In this document: one piece after another, positions 30,713 through 58,284 of the stretch
Position numbering within the stretch: position 1 is the stretch's first letter
How the letters are laid out: every line of letters starts with the position of its first letter
DNA from: Leptotrichia buccalis C-1013-b
GTDB taxonomy: Bacteria > Fusobacteriota > Fusobacteriia > Fusobacteriales > Leptotrichiaceae
Reading direction: 5' to 3'
NCBI RefSeq assembly: GCF_000023905.1
Contig: NC_013192.1
Location: 2,108,001 to 2,172,000, forward strand
DNA: 64,000 nt
The notes under the pieces: generated by a model
Databases searched by the model: none
What the model was told of the DNA's origin: nothing
What the model saw: only the letters and a program-made list of their open reading frames with translations
Position numbers and translations under genes: made by a program

Positions 30713-31210
30713 ATGAAACTGAATAAAGAATTAGAAGTATTATTAAACAATCAAATAAATATGGAATTGGCAGCATCTTATCAATATCAGGCTATGGCAG
30801 CATATTTTGATGAAAGAGCTTTGGACGGGTTTGCAAAATGGATGGATAACCAAGCAAAAGAAGAAGTTGAACATTCAAGAAAATTCTATAACTATGTATT
30901 AAAAAGAAATGGAAAAATTGAATTTTTTGCATTGGATAAGCCTAAAATGGATTTTACATCTGTTAAAGAAGTATTTGAAGCTGCACTTGCACATGAAGAA
31001 GCTGTAACAGCGTCTATTGAAAATATTCACAAACTTGCAAGAGAATTGGGAGATTATGGGGCTGAAGTATTCTTAAATGAATTTGCTGAAGAACAGGAAG
31101 AAGAAGAAGAACAAGCTCAAAAATTAATTGATAAAATTGTTTCTTTAGATGTTGATAACAATAGTGCTACACTATATTTATTGGATAAAGAAATGGGAAC
31201 AAGAGAATAA
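30713..31210 (+). CDS. ftn: Non-haem ferritin
   Basis: 165-residue iron-storage subunit. The ferroxidase centre is visible as NQINMELAASYQYQAMAAYFD, EEVEHSRKFYNYV and the later FLNEFAEEQEEEE. GGAG lies 7 nt before the ATG at 30713, which I prefer to the TTG at 30701. Co-transcribed with perR, so iron storage is probably tied to peroxide stress. Confidence 0.95.
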   Translation: MKLNKELEVLLNNQINMELAASYQYQAMAAYFDERALDGFAKWMDNQAKEEVEHSRKFYNYVLKRNGKIEFFALDKPKMDFTSVKEVFEAALAHEEAVTASIENIHKLARELGDYGAEVFLNEFAEEQEEEEEQAQKLIDKIVSLDVDNNSATLYLLDKEMGTRE

Positions 31211-31341
31211 GTAAAAAAATATAAAGTGGTTTTTCAAAAATGGCTAAGTATGCACGCTAGGAGGGCACGATAAAAGTATTTAGCTATTTTTTATTTCTTT
31301 TTGATCCCCATATATATTACAAAGCCAAAAAGCAAAAAAAT

Positions 31342-52165: not shown

Positions 52166-53878
52166 ATGGTTGCAACAATACAAGTTAATAAACAGAGCAT
52201 AAAGCAGCTGTTGGAAAGCGGAAAAGACCAGACTTTTTTAATACCGGAATATCAAAGACCTTATTCCTGGACTGAAACTGAAACCAAAACACTATTTTAT
52301 GATTTGCTGGAATTTACAGAAAATGAGGCAAAAAGAAATAGTGAAGTGGAAGGGACATATTTTTTAGGAAGTATTGTTTCATATGAAAATGATGAAGGCG
52401 AGCAGGAAATCATTGATGGGCAGCAAAGAATTACTTCGTTGTTTCTGCTTCTTCGTGCAATTTATACAAAACTGCTTTCTTATGAAGAAAAAACTGTTGA
52501 GCAGGAAAATTTCATAAGGCAGATTCAGCCTGCTCTTTGGAAACAGGCAAAACTTACTGGAGAAGTTGATTATACAAGCGTTTTGATTACTTCAAAAGTT
52601 ATTGACAATGAAGGGAATAAAATTTTGCAGGATATTCTGGAAACTGGGATTGCTGACCATAAAGCCAATGATAATTATTCCAAAAATTATATTTTGTTCC
52701 AGAGGCTTTTTGATAAACTTTCTGAATTAAGTCCTACTTTGATGCTGGAATTTATTTATTATACTTTAAATCGTGCTGTAGTTTTTCCGATAAAAACAGA
52801 TTCGCAGGATGATGCGTTAAGTGTATTTTCAACTTTGAATGACAGAGGGCTTCCACTTTCTGAAGCGGATATTTTCAAGGCAAAAATGTATAACCGTATA
52901 AAAAAGGAATACAAGAAATTATTTATAAAACAGTGGAAAAATCTAAGCGAAAGGGCAATATACGCTAAAGAAAATGTTCAGCAACTATTTTATTATTATA
53001 TGTTTTATTTAAGAGCATTGGAAAAAGATACAGCAACTACTACGCTTGGACTTAGACGTTTTTATTCAAAAGGTGGATTTAACAGATTATATAAGTCTAA
53101 TCTTTTAAAACATCTGGATAAAATTTTAGATTTATGGGTTGTTATGAATAGACGTGAAACGATTGATAATAAACCTTGGACAGAAAATATTGATATTATT
53201 AAAATTTTAGATACATTGTCTTCTTATCCGAATGAATCATGGAAATATCCAGTTGTCGTTTTTTATCTTTCTCATGGTGAAAATGAAGAATTTGAATCGT
53301 ATTTTTTAAAATTTTTAAGAAAGCTATTTTTGGAACTGACGGCAAATTATCTTGTAAATCCAACTGTTTCGGCAGTAAAAGCGGACATTTTGAAATTAAA
53401 TGTTGAAATAATTGATACTATGTCACCAAAAGTGGCATTCAAAAATATTCCAATTACTGTGTTGCAGGAAAGAGTAAAAACGCCTAATAAAAATCTTGTC
53501 CGTATGATTTTAAAAATGGTAATTTACGATAATCAGGACGAACTGTTGCCTGAAAAATGGGAAGTTGAATACATTCTTCCGCAAAAATGGAGCAACCGTT
53601 TTACAGAAAGTGTAGAAAATAAGCAGGCTAAAACTTATATAAATTACATAGGAAACAAGATCCCATTTGAAAAGAGATTGTCTATTAAAGCTACAGAAAA
53701 CTTTTTTGAAAAGAAAAAGAAAAGCTATAAAAAATCTAAAATTAAATATGTTAGGGAACTTATTCCAGAAGAACAAACTGAATGGACTTTTGAAAATATA
53801 GATGCCAGAAATAAAAAAGTGGCTGAAGAGCTAGTAAAGCTATTTATTACATGGAATGGGGAATATAAATTTAAATAA
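52166..53878 (+). CDS. DUF262-DUF1524 protein (GmrSD-like type IV restriction family) with altered HNH motif
   Basis: 570 residues. The N-terminal DUF262 domain shows FLIPEYQRPYSW and the canonical DGQQR (84-88); FSTLNDRGLPLSEADIFK is the conserved second block. The C-terminal part matches DUF1524, the HNH-like half of GmrSD, which cleaves glucosylated hydroxymethylcytosine phage DNA. The usual EHILPQ block reads EYILPQ here: the position of the expected catalytic His is Tyr469 (codon TAC). Downstream YIGN and ENFFEKKKKSYKKS blocks are preserved. Single gene with AGGAGG upstream; no methyltransferase nearby, as expected for a type IV system. Confidence 0.88.
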   Translation: MVATIQVNKQSIKQLLESGKDQTFLIPEYQRPYSWTETETKTLFYDLLEFTENEAKRNSEVEGTYFLGSIVSYENDEGEQEIIDGQQRITSLFLLLRAIYTKLLSYEEKTVEQENFIRQIQPALWKQAKLTGEVDYTSVLITSKVIDNEGNKILQDILETGIADHKANDNYSKNYILFQRLFDKLSELSPTLMLEFIYYTLNRAVVFPIKTDSQDDALSVFSTLNDRGLPLSEADIFKAKMYNRIKKEYKKLFIKQWKNLSERAIYAKENVQQLFYYYMFYLRALEKDTATTTLGLRRFYSKGGFNRLYKSNLLKHLDKILDLWVVMNRRETIDNKPWTENIDIIKILDTLSSYPNESWKYPVVVFYLSHGENEEFESYFLKFLRKLFLELTANYLVNPTVSAVKADILKLNVEIIDTMSPKVAFKNIPITVLQERVKTPNKNLVRMILKMVIYDNQDELLPEKWEVEYILPQKWSNRFTESVENKQAKTYINYIGNKIPFEKRLSIKATENFFEKKKKSYKKSKIKYVRELIPEEQTEWTFENIDARNKKVAEELVKLFITWNGEYKFK

Positions 53879-53914: not shown

Positions 53915-54069
53915 GAAATAACATAGAAAAATAAAATAAATAAAAATGGTAAAGAAGAGAAAATATTAATTTAGCATCTTGTATAAATATAAAAAAATTG
54001 CTTTTTAAGGTTGCAATTTAAAAAGAAAAGGAATATAATTAAGTTAGAAAAATATTTAAGGAGTTTTAT

Positions 54070-54555
54070 ATGTTACAGGATTTTTACGGTATTATTCAGG
54101 TAAAACATTACCAAAGTGGACGGTTAAGGCTTCAGACGGATGCATTGATAGAAAATGTGGAGCTGGAGCTGGAATTTTTGGCTAATTTGCGACAATTATC
54201 GGGAATAAGAGCAGTAAAAGTTAATTCTGTCATTGGCAGTATTTTGATACATTTTGATGAAAAAGTTATTGAAAGTTCGTTTTTGTATCTGATTGTATTA
54301 AAATTACTTCATTTAGAAGAAGAAGCCCTAAAAAATAAACCAGGAAAACTGAAAAAAATGATAAGACAGGCATTTGAAGCATTGGATATGGCTGTTTATA
54401 ACAAAAGTAAAGGTTATTTGGACTTAAAGACTTTAACTGCTGGAGCTTTTATCTTTTATGGAATTAAAAAATTAAAAATGACTCCCAAATTGCCTGCAGG
54501 TGCCACTTTATTATGGTGGGCTTTTATTTTTTTATCGGAAGGAAAAACAAAATAA
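54070..54555 (+). CDS. HMA-like membrane-associated protein, first gene of the P1B-ATPase cassette
   Basis: 161 residues. The N-terminal 80 residues have the ferredoxin-like pattern of heavy-metal-associated domains (VKHYQSGRLRLQTD, IRAVKVNSVIGSILIHFD) but lack the CxxC metal site. A central basic helix is followed by two hydrophobic segments near 115-155 (LTAGAFIFYGIKKL, AGATLLWWAFIFL). Stop and next start share one base (TAATG), so translation is coupled. Role inferred from context: partner or assembly factor of the ATPase. Confidence 0.72.
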   Translation: MLQDFYGIIQVKHYQSGRLRLQTDALIENVELELEFLANLRQLSGIRAVKVNSVIGSILIHFDEKVIESSFLYLIVLKLLHLEEEALKNKPGKLKKMIRQAFEALDMAVYNKSKGYLDLKTLTAGAFIFYGIKKLKMTPKLPAGATLLWWAFIFLSEGKTK

Positions 54556-54926
54556 TGTTGGAAAATTTATTTAAAGCGACATATCTGATGTTTAATCAGA
54601 TAAAGGTTATACACAGTATTCCAGGAAGGCTAAGACTTTCTGTTCCAAATTTATCAGAGATTCCAAAGGAACTGAAAAAGTATGATTATCGGGTTACAGA
54701 ACTTATTTTATCCAAAAAAGGCATAAAAAGCATTGAATATTCCTATATAACGAACAAAATTCTGCTTTATTATGATGTAAAATTAACTTCGGAAAAGGAA
54801 ATATTGGATTGGCTAAATAAAGTATGGAAAACGGTAGTCAACCATTCTGAATTATATGAAAATAAATCCTTGAAGGAAATTGAAAATAATCTTGACACCT
54901 TTTATAATATAATTGAACGGCTTTAG
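54555..54926 (+). CDS. Soluble HMA-like protein of the P1B-ATPase cassette
   Basis: 123 residues with the same GRLRL signature (VIHSIPGRLRLSVPNL) and the second HMA-like strand (IKSIEYSYITNKILLYYD). No cysteine pair and no membrane segment. The ATG at 54555 overlaps the preceding stop. The gene ends with TAG at 54924-54926, where a sequence resembling the outer end of the window's IS5 element begins. Confidence 0.7.
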   Translation: MLENLFKATYLMFNQIKVIHSIPGRLRLSVPNLSEIPKELKKYDYRVTELILSKKGIKSIEYSYITNKILLYYDVKLTSEKEILDWLNKVWKTVVNHSELYENKSLKEIENNLDTFYNIIERL

Positions 54927-54954
54927 GGCGTGCCTGGAAAAGAAAGGAATTTTT

Positions 54955-57138
54955 ATGTATGGTAAAAATTATTTGCTAGATTGTGAGATTCTGCACGAAA
55001 TTCGTGGAAGAATCAGAATAAAATCAAGAGCATTGAAGTATCTTGGGATTCATAAGGAAGAAATAACGAGTCAGCTGATGCAGGTTCATTATATTGAAAA
55101 TGTCAGTATTTCCAATATTACAGGAACTGTTCTTATTTACTTTGATGCTTCTTCCCTGACTGGCGAAAATATTGTTTCCTTGCTTCAAAATACGTTAAAT
55201 ACGTATCTAGTGGATATTTACAAGAATGAGAAAAAAGACACATCAAACAAATATCTCATTGAAAGAAAGTTGCAGGAAGAATCGCCACAGGAAATCATAA
55301 AAAGTATAGGAGCTGCAGTAATATTATTGCTATTACCAAACCCAAAGAGAAAATTGACTGGAATTAGACGACTATTTAACTATAAGACTTTGTCAACTAT
55401 TTCTTTAGCTCTGCCTGTCCTGAAAAATGGAATTTATTCGTTAATTCGCAATAAACGTCCAAATACAGATACTTTAAGCTCTACAGCCATTGTCAGCAGC
55501 ATAATGCTTGGTAGTGAAAGAACAGCATTGACAATTATGGTTCTAGAAAGATTTGCGGAGCTTTTGACAGTTTACACTATGAAAAGAACACGTGGCGTAA
55601 TTAAGGATATGTTAAGTGTTGGAGAAAATTATGTCTGGAAACAGTCTGAAAATGATACGGAAATTGCTAGAAAAGTTCCCATCGAGGAAATAGATAAAGG
55701 GGACTTAATACTTGTTCAGACTGGTGAAAAAATAAGTGTGGACGGAATAATAGAAAAAGGCGAAGCTATAATTGACCAGTCGGCAATTACAGGAGAATAT
55801 ATGCCTGTAACTAAAAGAACTGGAGAAGAAGTTTTTGCAGGTACACTTATAAAAAACGGGAATATTACTGTAAAAGCTGAAAAAGTGGGAGATGACAGGA
55901 CAGCTTCAAGAATTATAAGGCTGGTGGAAGATGCCGCATTTAACAAGGCGGATATTCAGTCCTATGCAGATACATTTTCTGCCCAGCTAATTCCACTAAA
56001 TTTTCTTCTTGCTGGAATTGTCTACGTTTCAACAAGAAATTTACAGAAAGCTCTGAGCATGCTTGTAATTGATTATTCTTGCGGAATAAGATTATCAACT
56101 GCAACAGCTTTCTCAGCTTCAATAAATACAGCGGCTAAAAATGGAATTTTAATTAAAGGAAGCAACTATCTGGAAGAATTATCAAAATCAGACACAGTAA
56201 TATTTGACAAGACAGGTACAATTACTGAAGGAAGACCTAAAATACAGACACTTAAGTCTTTTGGAAAAAATATGAGAAATGAAAGAATGCTGGCATTAGC
56301 AGCAGCAGCTGAAGAAACTTCCTCACATCCTTTGGCAACTGCAATTTTAAATGAAATAAAAAACAGGGGAATAGCTATTCCAAAACATCAAGAATGTATT
56401 ATAAAAGTAGCTAGAGGAATAGAAACTGTTGTAAATAAAAGTATTATTCGTGTAGGAAGTCAAAAGTATATGGAAGAAAATAATATTGATTCTGAAAAGG
56501 CTTCTGACATAGTGAAAGGAATGCAGAATCGTGGGGAAATCGTTATTTATGTAGCCAAAAATGCTGAATTAATCGGTGTGATTGGAGTTTCAGATCCGCC
56601 TAGGGAAAATATTAAGAAAGCTATAAATCGTCTGAGAAATCATGGAATTGATGATATTGTGCTTTTGACGGGAGATTTGAGACAGCAGGCTGAAACTATT
56701 GCTTCAAGAATGTCGATGGACAGGTATGAATCTGAACTTCTTCCTGAAGACAAGGCAAAAGATATTCTAAAATTCCGTTCAATCGGATCAAAAGTCATTA
56801 TGATAGGAGATGGAATAAACGATGCTCCCGCTCTTTCATATGCAAACGTAGGAATAGCTCTAGGAAGCACCAGAACAGACGTTGCAATGGAAGCTGCTGA
56901 TATTACGATAACTTCAGACGACCCGTTATTAATACCAGGAGTAGTAGGTTTGGCAAAGAATACTGTCAAAATAATAAAACAAAATTTCGCAATGGCAATA
57001 GGAATAAATAGTTTTGCACTTGTACTGGGAGCGACAGGACTTCTTCCTGCAATTTACAGCTCAATTTTACACAATTCGATAACGATTTTGGTAGTTGGAA
57101 ATTCATTGAGGCTGTTAAAATATGATATTAATAGATAA
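54955..57138 (+). CDS. P1B-type heavy-metal-translocating ATPase with non-canonical SCG motif
   Basis: 727 residues. A cysteine-free HMA-like N-terminus (LHEIRGRIRIKSRAL) precedes the membrane domain. P-type core: actuator ITGEYMPVTK, phosphorylation site DKTGT (Asp418), hinge GDGINDAPA (618-626) and SHPLATAIL for the nucleotide-binding His. In the metal-gating helix the usual CPC/SPC is replaced by YSCGIRLSTAT (Ser375-Cys376-Gly377), so the metal cannot be read from known subgroups. AAAGGAATTTTT precedes the ATG at 54955. Flanked by HMA-like genes on both sides. Confidence 0.9.
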   Translation: MYGKNYLLDCEILHEIRGRIRIKSRALKYLGIHKEEITSQLMQVHYIENVSISNITGTVLIYFDASSLTGENIVSLLQNTLNTYLVDIYKNEKKDTSNKYLIERKLQEESPQEIIKSIGAAVILLLLPNPKRKLTGIRRLFNYKTLSTISLALPVLKNGIYSLIRNKRPNTDTLSSTAIVSSIMLGSERTALTIMVLERFAELLTVYTMKRTRGVIKDMLSVGENYVWKQSENDTEIARKVPIEEIDKGDLILVQTGEKISVDGIIEKGEAIIDQSAITGEYMPVTKRTGEEVFAGTLIKNGNITVKAEKVGDDRTASRIIRLVEDAAFNKADIQSYADTFSAQLIPLNFLLAGIVYVSTRNLQKALSMLVIDYSCGIRLSTATAFSASINTAAKNGILIKGSNYLEELSKSDTVIFDKTGTITEGRPKIQTLKSFGKNMRNERMLALAAAAEETSSHPLATAILNEIKNRGIAIPKHQECIIKVARGIETVVNKSIIRVGSQKYMEENNIDSEKASDIVKGMQNRGEIVIYVAKNAELIGVIGVSDPPRENIKKAINRLRNHGIDDIVLLTGDLRQQAETIASRMSMDRYESELLPEDKAKDILKFRSIGSKVIMIGDGINDAPALSYANVGIALGSTRTDVAMEAADITITSDDPLLIPGVVGLAKNTVKIIKQNFAMAIGINSFALVLGATGLLPAIYSSILHNSITILVVGNSLRLLKYDINR

Positions 57139-57209
57139 TTTTTAAAGGTTATACGTTATCCTTGAAGTATAATAAACGTAAATAATCATAAAGGGTGATG
57201 ATTTGTAAT

Positions 57210-57956
57210 ATGAAAAAATTAACCTTGACAATACTGCATAAATTGCCGAATCGTGTCAGATTTAGACTTTCACACAGCATTAACGATACAAAAAAATTTT
57301 TTGAAACAATAAAAGTTGAAACAAAATATACATTTTTACGTTATAATCGTACTATAAATACTATACTTGTAAAATTTGACCCTGAGGAAATTTCAATAGA
57401 TGAAGTAATTTACCGTACTGCCACAGCTTTATCGGTTGAACATGGTATGACTTCGGTAAGATTGGTTGAAGATTTTGAAGAAAAATCTATAGATTCTTTT
57501 TCTATTTATTCTGGGGCAGCAATATTACTGTCTTTCCTGTATAGTTTGGGAAAAAGTAAAGTTGAAAAGCTGCAGATTGATATAAACAATTTTGCGGCTG
57601 GGCTTACAACTGTAGCGATTATGGAACACGCATATAAGGAAACTCAGCGTAAAGGATTTTTTGACATTGAAATTCTTCCTGCATTATACTTGTTAAAATC
57701 TTATTTGGCAAATAGATCAGTTACCGCAGTAGCTCTTATGTGGCTCACAACTTTTGGACGGCATCTTGTGCTGAATAATTTTTCAAACAAGGAAGTAAGA
57801 ATTTACAGATTAAAAGCTGACAATGGAAAATTCCATTATGTTGTCGATGTAAAAGATGACAATTCGATTGAAAATCTGAGCGATTTGATAGACCACATAT
57901 TTTTTAATAATAAGGCTGGTAACGAATCGGATGATAAATACATTGCGTTGCAATAG
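57210..57956 (+). CDS. HMA-like protein with hydrophobic segments, P1B-ATPase cassette
   Basis: 248 residues. N-terminal HMA-like domain (ILHKLPNRVRFRLSHS, TINTILVKFDPEEI), again without a CxxC. A hydrophobic stretch follows (IYSGAAILLSFLYSL, then GLTTVAIMEHAYKE and a third near SVTAVALMWLTTF), and a C-terminal beta part. The ATG at 57210 is preferred because AAGGGTGAT sits about 10 nt upstream; earlier in-frame starts lie inside that site. About 70 bp after the ATPase gene. Confidence 0.7.
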   Translation: MKKLTLTILHKLPNRVRFRLSHSINDTKKFFETIKVETKYTFLRYNRTINTILVKFDPEEISIDEVIYRTATALSVEHGMTSVRLVEDFEEKSIDSFSIYSGAAILLSFLYSLGKSKVEKLQIDINNFAAGLTTVAIMEHAYKETQRKGFFDIEILPALYLLKSYLANRSVTAVALMWLTTFGRHLVLNNFSNKEVRIYRLKADNGKFHYVVDVKDDNSIENLSDLIDHIFFNNKAGNESDDKYIALQ

Positions 57957-57996
57957 AAAAAAATTAAAATATTAAATAAAAAATGGAGGTATAAAA

Positions 57997-58284
57997 ATGA
58001 TAAAATTTGGAAGCATTAAAAAAGAACATTTGGTAGGAGCGGCAATTGGAGTCGGAACTGTGGCTGCTGGTTATTATTTGTACAAAAAGAACCAGAATAA
58101 AGTGGACAGTTTTTTGAGAAAACAGGGAATAAATATAAAAACTTCTTCAGAAGCGGCTTATGAAAATATGAATCTGGAAGAACTGATGACAACAAAGGAA
58201 CACCTTGAAGACTTAATTGCTGAAAAGGAACTTTCAACAAATTCAGCTGCTCCAGAATTGATTACTGAAAGTGAAACAAAATAA
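57997..58284 (+). CDS. Small single-pass membrane protein of the P1B-ATPase cassette
   Basis: 95 residues with one N-terminal transmembrane helix (LVGAAIGVGTVAAGYYLYKK), a lysine-rich turn and an acidic helical tail (LEELMTTKEHLEDLIAEKE). Looks like a small accessory subunit. ATGGAGG precedes the ATG. Last gene of the cassette, 41 bp after the preceding one. Confidence 0.7.
   Translation: MIKFGSIKKEHLVGAAIGVGTVAAGYYLYKKNQNKVDSFLRKQGINIKTSSEAAYENMNLEELMTTKEHLEDLIAEKELSTNSAAPELITESETK

Follow-up and report, generated by a model that had tools for sequence, protein, structure and literature searches.

A conserved five-gene cluster of Leptotrichia buccalis encoding a putative Fez-like P-type pump and cysteine-free HMA-like proteins

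Gene content of the locus

The window considered here is a stretch of 64,000 nucleotides of Leptotrichia buccalis C-1013-b (contig NC_013192.1), in which positions 54070-58284 carry five co-oriented open reading frames on the + strand with tight spacing, termed P1-P5. A five-gene ATPase cassette at this position, including a fifth small membrane protein, had been proposed in the original prediction from the sequence, and both features were found. P1 (54070..54555; 161 aa) is an HMA_2 protein comprising an R-motif (R-x-R) domain and a C-terminal hydrophobic stretch (Pfam HMA_2, E 1.1e-51), while P2 (54555..54926; 123 aa), whose ATG overlaps the stop codon of P1, is a small R-motif HMA_2 protein (Pfam HMA_2, E 1.1e-6; 29.2 bits, just under the cut-off of 30). 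P3 (54955..57138; 727 aa from the ATG, with a TTG at 54913 as a possible alternative start) is a P1B-type ATPase with an N-terminal R-motif HMA_2 domain, as indicated by matches to TIGR01525 (E 6.7e-169) and HMA_2 (E 5.5e-11) and by phylogenetic trees. P4 (57210..57956; 248 aa from the ATG) combines an R-motif HMA-like domain with four transmembrane (TM) helices which resemble the MA-MB-M1-M2 helices of P1B pumps in the AF2 model, structure alignment and hhalign comparison. Finally, P5 (57997..58284; 95 aa) is a one-TM protein with a glycine-rich TM helix and an acidic C-terminal helix.

A promoter-like site (TTGCAA-N17-TATAAT; 54011..54039, + strand) can be read in the sequence upstream of P1, and the block TTGTAATTTAAAATAAAAAGGTATATAAT upstream of this gene is conserved across Leptotrichia genomes. 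Footprinting of this region among the Leptotrichia genomes yielded a sigma-70-like promoter as the sole conserved element, and no Fur-box-like repeat was seen there. Similarly, no Rfam match to a metal riboswitch was obtained upstream of the cluster over ten relatives, nor near the cluster in the window. Directly upstream lies a gene for a GmrSD/DUF262-type restriction-like protein (52166-53878, + strand), which adjoins the cluster in only part of the Leptotrichia genomes. An Rfam match to the algC RNA (53510-53563, + strand; 37.2 bits against a cut-off of 33.8) falls inside the coding region of this gene, and is probably due to chance or an overlapping element.

Conservation of the cluster

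The order P1-P5 is retained in the Leptotrichiaceae, Fusobacteriaceae, Clostridia and Bacteroidales, and the grouping of the five genes is thus not a product of chance; the HMA-like genes are conserved next to the ATPase gene across the Fusobacteriota, Clostridia and Bacteroidales, as would be expected if, as originally supposed, they belong with it. The five families also recur together in Desulfosporosinus. HMA_2 matches of this kind were observed in 31/98 Fusobacteriota genomes, and the Fusobacteriota loci that were fetched share the P1-P5 order and a common strand for the five genes while their flanking genes differ, so that the five genes behave as a unit. A contig scan of 20 loci from Leptotrichia, Fusobacterium, Desulfosporosinus, Acidaminobacter and the Bacteroidales identified P1, the ATPase and P4 in 20/20, P5 in 18/20 and a clear P2 in 15/20 loci, with some of the contigs ending within or near the cluster. 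Among the Peptostreptococcales fourteen loci were fetched, and the same P1-P5 block is present in those listed gene by gene. This conservation as a block, together with HMA folds that lack cysteine-based metal handling, supports a multi-gene P1B-type pump unit of the sort envisaged in the original prediction.

Several loci deviate in detail. The Acidaminobacter cluster encodes a sixth R-motif protein directly after P5 (L098:5087-5566). Two otherwise intact clusters (L033 and L066) have an ATPase frame that breaks in two directly behind the N-terminal domain, close to short poly-A runs, which may reflect sequencing error, decay or phase variation. In two clostridial loci (L156 and L157), genes for several R-motif P-type ATPases follow one another, interspersed with genes for small proteins. 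Among these ATPases are a pump of the CPK type and a Ca-ATPase-like protein that likewise starts with an R-motif domain (NIPGRMRIK).

Motifs and phylogenetic placement of the pump

The TM4 segment of P3 is IDYSCGIRLSTA, and its D-Y-S-C-G residues (373-377; 56071..56085, + strand) form the candidate ion site, with D373, S375 and C376 invariant in alignment A2. The presence of SCG in place of CPC/SPC in the gating helix, as first noted in the original prediction, is seen here in TM4, whereas CPC is found in TM4 of ZntA, CopA and the CtpC-like pumps. TM6 of P3 incorporates an HN motif (H706-N707; 57070..57075, + strand), which is a feature of the P1B6 ATPases; these are encoded with a DUF6110-type small protein, and CtpC, with HN and CPC, is P1B6-like (PMC9374683). 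All SCG pumps combine D-Y/F-S-C-G in TM4 with HN in TM6. The latter motif is present in all 17 SCG/ICG pumps as well as in the FezB-group and CtpC-like pumps and absent from ZntA and CopA, while D-[Y/F]-S-C in TM4 is common to the SCG pumps and most FezB-type pumps. The solved-structure matches of P3 are restricted to other pumps, with Cu, Cd and Zn pumps the best among these.

Clostridioides genomes were picked out by means of a species-specific tpi primer. In one of these genomes, a gene for a one-TM DUF6110 protein of 131 aa is followed, at about 0.71 Mb, by one for a pump of 699 aa, and this pump recurs in the other Clostridioides genomes searched, except one. It is most readily taken as FezB, in agreement with the assignment of fezAB to CD630_05910-05920 (PMC11651100). 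The presumed C. difficile-type FezB carries an R motif of this kind (IKHEIRGRIRFDLQ), with SCA in TM4, and the plasmid pumps of Azospirillum, Vibrio, Arcobacter, Cereibacter and Deinococcus group with it.

In the fuller tree the SCG pumps are the sister of the FezB group (SH-aLRT 95). In a stricter tree, built without the N-terminal domain, the TM4 columns and the long branches, all R-motif ATPases (SCG, FezB and CtpC-like) form one clade (100/100), within which the SCG pumps constitute a clade of their own (100/100) beside the FezB clade (100/99), with the branching order of SCG, FezB and CtpC-like pumps, the sister position of SCG included, not settled in this tree. P3 is thus a neighbour of FezB outside the clade of C. 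difficile FezB and the fez-like plasmid pumps, and the cluster is a variant within the P1B6/Fez/PacL superfamily. Phylogeny among the P1B subgroups therefore goes half of the way towards a characterised subgroup, as the ATPase stands next to FezB and CtpC while forming a clade of its own. The SCG clade may already be counted in the published ferrosome work (Grant 2022; Pi 2023).

Genomic neighbours and the transported ion

The gene neighbourhoods of relatives give pointers to the ion. The gene order is flavodoxin-Fur-feoA-feoB-P1..P5 in one locus (L142) and feoA-feoA-feoB-P1..P5 in another (L141), each on one strand, while genes for ZIP, FeoA and FeoB adjoin the cluster in L147, and feoB is located 3.5 kb away in L087. 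Furthermore, DtxR-family (iron-dependent) repressors and ABC or ZIP metal importers are encoded beside the cluster in L032, L041 and L097. Within the window itself, no iron gene adjoins P1-P5. Because of the feoAB and Fur neighbours in relatives iron is favoured, and is the best single guess for the ion, with Mn and Zn as alternatives. The original picture of a stand-alone system with a wholly unknown ion is not upheld, considering these neighbours, the HN motif of the P1B6 ATPases, and the proximity of the pump to FezB and CtpC-like pumps with the same cysteine-free R-motif domain.

Among 297 Peptostreptococcales genomes, SCG pumps occur in 21 and FezB in 49, with a co-occurrence of 0 against an expected 3.5 (hypergeometric P about 0.02, which ignores kinship, with three candidates scored per genome); this non-overlap speaks for a Fez-like reading in a suggestive way only. 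A role of the cluster as a simple ferritin substitute was rejected, as ferritin genes coexist with the cluster, in this genome included. Ferritin-family matches are present in 86/98 Fusobacteriota genomes, cluster-bearing Leptotrichia genomes among them. The window encodes a ferritin-family protein (30713-31211, + strand; Pfam Ferritin, E 6.7e-41), and the genome therefore also has a protein-cage iron store.

The same neighbourhoods leave some room for a second reading, in which P3 is a CtpC-like Zn(II)/Mn(II) efflux pump of the same superfamily, with the same P5/PacL-type clustering, that exports excess Zn or Mn and forms no storage compartment. CtpC-like pumps also have the R and HN motifs and pair with DUF1490/PacL proteins, and some SCG clusters adjoin ABC-3 or ZIP metal importers and DtxR-family repressors. 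However, the DYSCG of P3 differs from the CPC of CtpC-like pumps in TM4, the feoAB and Fur neighbours point to iron and the FezB group is the preferred sister of the SCG pumps in the fuller tree, so that efflux of this kind is conceivable but rather unlikely.

Cysteine-free HMA-like domains

No cysteine occurs anywhere in P1, P2, P4 and P5, and the only cysteines of P3 are C10, C376 (of SCG) and C481, which do not form a CxxC. The CxxC metal site is thus missing from the HMA-like domains of P1-P4, in which the HMA-like ferredoxin fold is present. While the Pfam HMA_2 match of P4 (E 0.01) is below the cut-off, profile-profile comparison identified one homologous domain in P1, P2, P3 and P4 (5e-13 for P1-P3, 3e-13 for P2-P3 and 1e-14 for P1-P2; P4-P3, 1.6e-10 over the whole match and 8e-17 domain against domain). 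The AF2 model of P2 (pLDDT 79) has a ferredoxin-like fold, with Z of about 5-7 against MerP, CopZ and the ATP7B metal-binding domains, as does that of P4, with Z of about 4-5 against the same structures; these values are middling for a common fold. No relatives of P1 were found among solved structures. The hydrophobic tail of P1 was considered as a pump fragment, for which no support was obtained (hhalign P 0.3).

The four domains carry the G(R/N)xRxR signature given in the original prediction, with all four quoted motifs present on the + strand: GRLRLQ in P1 (SGRLRLQ; 54118..54135; R18 at least 90 % conserved and R20 invariant in alignment A6), GRLRLS in P2 (PGRLRLS; 54624..54641; read in the sequence and the family alignment), GRIRIK in P3 (RGRIRIK; 55006..55023; R19 and R21 invariant in 17 ATPases of the SCG and SCA types) and NRVRFR in P4 (PNRVRFR; 57249..57266; R15 and R17 invariant in alignment A4). 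In each of the four families, both R-x-R arginines rank with the best-conserved residues. Such cysteine-free R-motif domains also occur in ferrosome-type clusters and are thus not peculiar to the window.

It could be argued that these domains still deliver metal by way of non-cysteine ligands, with the extra proteins acting as chaperones rather than scaffolds, given that the HMA-like fold is retained and encoded in a metal-pump operon. A small opening for this is left by the histidine preceding the R motif, which is conserved in two families (H10 of P4 and H20 of P2). However, at the place of the CxxC loop there is no conserved cysteine, and the invariant features are two arginines and structural positions, which would make a poor cation site; metal delivery is thus improbable. 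By analogy, the HMA-like domains probably dock subunits instead of handing over metal, and the structural role tentatively raised in the original prediction is the most economical reading. Docking would provide a concrete reason for the existence of cysteine-free HMA-like domains.

The membrane module of P4

Residues 91-187 of P4 find their closest structural match in the MA-MB-M1-M2 helices of P1B pumps (VIA-align; best match Cd-ATPase 7qbz, Z 8.4; ATP7B, 7.1-7.2), with a Z that can also arise for unrelated helical bundles. Compared on its own, the TM part of P4 resembles the equivalent region of P3 more closely than any other (hhalign P 0.0025). A half-pump origin of P4 is likely, and the protein may represent the duplicated front half of a pump. 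In alignment A4, H140 and H185 of the TM region are invariant, as is R184. Their invariance, and the cytochrome nature of ferrosome FezC (PMC10979944), would be in keeping with P4 as a FezC-like b-type cytochrome in which H140 and H185 bind haem and set the iron redox state, but with no DUF4405 match in P4, a TM part whose best alignment is to the front portion of P1B pumps and H185 at a helix end in the AF2 model, this is highly improbable.

The one-TM protein P5

When aligned with FezA, YtxH-like and DUF1490 (PacL) proteins, P5 shares with them an acidic motif (KEHLEDLIAEK, residues 67-77; 58195..58227, + strand), in which D72 is invariant and E68, E71, A75 and E76 are at least 90 % conserved. 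Comparison by means of hhalign matched residues 7-79 of P5 to the YtxH-like protein of fez-like operons with a probability of 84.5, against 3-7 for the controls (glycine-zipper and P2). The probability against the C. difficile-type FezA is 2.4, and the case for P5 as a direct FezA homologue is weak. The layout of P5 resembles that of the DUF6110-type small protein, but without a DUF6110 match. In the mycobacterial system, PacL2 attaches to the N-terminal domain of CtpG by way of Glu residues that are required for this contact and stabilise the pump, while a TM GXXG motif clusters the pump (PMC13043812).

Proposed assembly

On balance, the cluster is somewhat more probably than otherwise a Fez-like multi-subunit P-type pump assembly for Fe(II), and possibly Mn(II) or Zn(II), in which the HMA_2 domains serve as docking modules. 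P3 would be the pump, with an ion path that most likely includes Asp373, Ser375 and Cys376 of TM4 and His706-Asn707 of TM6, while the HMA-like domains of P1, P2, P3 and P4 would carry no metal. Instead, P5 would dock onto their conserved R-x-R edge by its acidic C-terminal helix, and its glycine-rich TM helix may cluster the subunits in the membrane as the PacL proteins do for CtpC and CtpG. P4, in which the HMA-like domain is joined to four helices resembling the front half of a P1B pump, would accompany the pump as a subunit without catalytic activity. If it works like FezA-FezB, the assembly may fill a membrane-bound store with iron, the alternative being export from the cell.

A bolder and doubtful extension is that the cluster represents a second lineage of ferrosome-like iron-storage machinery in oral and gut anaerobes, composed of one catalytic pump together with its non-catalytic paralogues (a half-pump and free HMA-like modules). 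The ancestral metal-chaperone domain would here have become an Arg-based module onto which an acidic scaffold helix docks. A review that covers both Fusobacterium and ferrosomes treats the two separately, and the cluster makes the extension of organelle-type iron storage to the Fusobacteriota a testable question.

Comparison with known systems

A strongly conserved, uncharacterised operon of the Fusobacteriota, and of some Clostridia and Bacteroidales, can now be tied to the ferrosome/PacL superfamily. As described in papers that cite the primary ferrosome work (Grant 2022; Pi 2023), the Fez systems comprise FezA-FezB of Clostridioides difficile and the six-gene operons of Rhodopseudomonas and Shewanella. 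Rhodopseudomonas has six fez genes (PMC12016538), FezC is a cytochrome and FezB a putative ferrous-iron transporter (PMC10979944). As far as these descriptions extend, likeness to the cluster lies in the P1B6-type pump, its cysteine-free R-motif HMA_2 N-domain, HN in TM6 and D-[Y/F]-S-C in TM4, as well as the one-TM acidic partner, the iron neighbours and the extra R-motif HMA_2 proteins of fez-like operons. In contrast, the cluster has SCG in TM4 (SCA in Fez), a separate clade, other genes and another order. It also has no FezC/DUF4405 protein (no Pfam match to the DUF4405 of FezC from the six-gene type in P1-P5), but has P4 with its half-pump-like membrane module, and any organelle formed by it would be putative. 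Iron- and Fur-dependent expression and membrane-bound iron granules are further marks of ferrosome clusters; as to the former, fur-feoAB lies beside relatives, and no Fur box was seen upstream in Leptotrichia.

The fez-like operons compared are those on named plasmids, with the fez operons of Rhodopseudomonas, Shewanella and Desulfovibrio left out, and share with the cluster a make-up of pump, R-motif HMA_2 proteins and one-TM protein. For example, the Azospirillum brasilense p3 operon encodes two HMA_2 proteins with the R motif, the first of which has a weak C-terminal DUF4405 match (FezC-like, E 0.046), two small proteins, a YtxH-like one-TM protein and the pump, and adjoins an iron ABC transporter, while the Cereibacter version is located next to feoA, between siderophore receptors.

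An uncharacterised Priestia plasmid cluster (L197; HMA2-HMA2-ATPase-HMA2-small protein) resembles P1-P5 in gene order, R motifs and HN motif, and its pump groups with the SCG pumps in the fuller tree (SH-aLRT 99), but has ICG in TM4 and about 38 % identity. The mycobacterial PacL-CtpC and PacL2-CtpG platforms (PMC9374683; PMC13043812) differ from the cluster in their CPC in TM4, Zn/Cd efflux, the C-terminal metal-binding motif on PacL1 and no extra HMA_2 proteins, and resemble it in the R motif of the CtpC-like pumps, the HN motif and a one-TM partner with a glycine-motif TM helix and acidic repeats.
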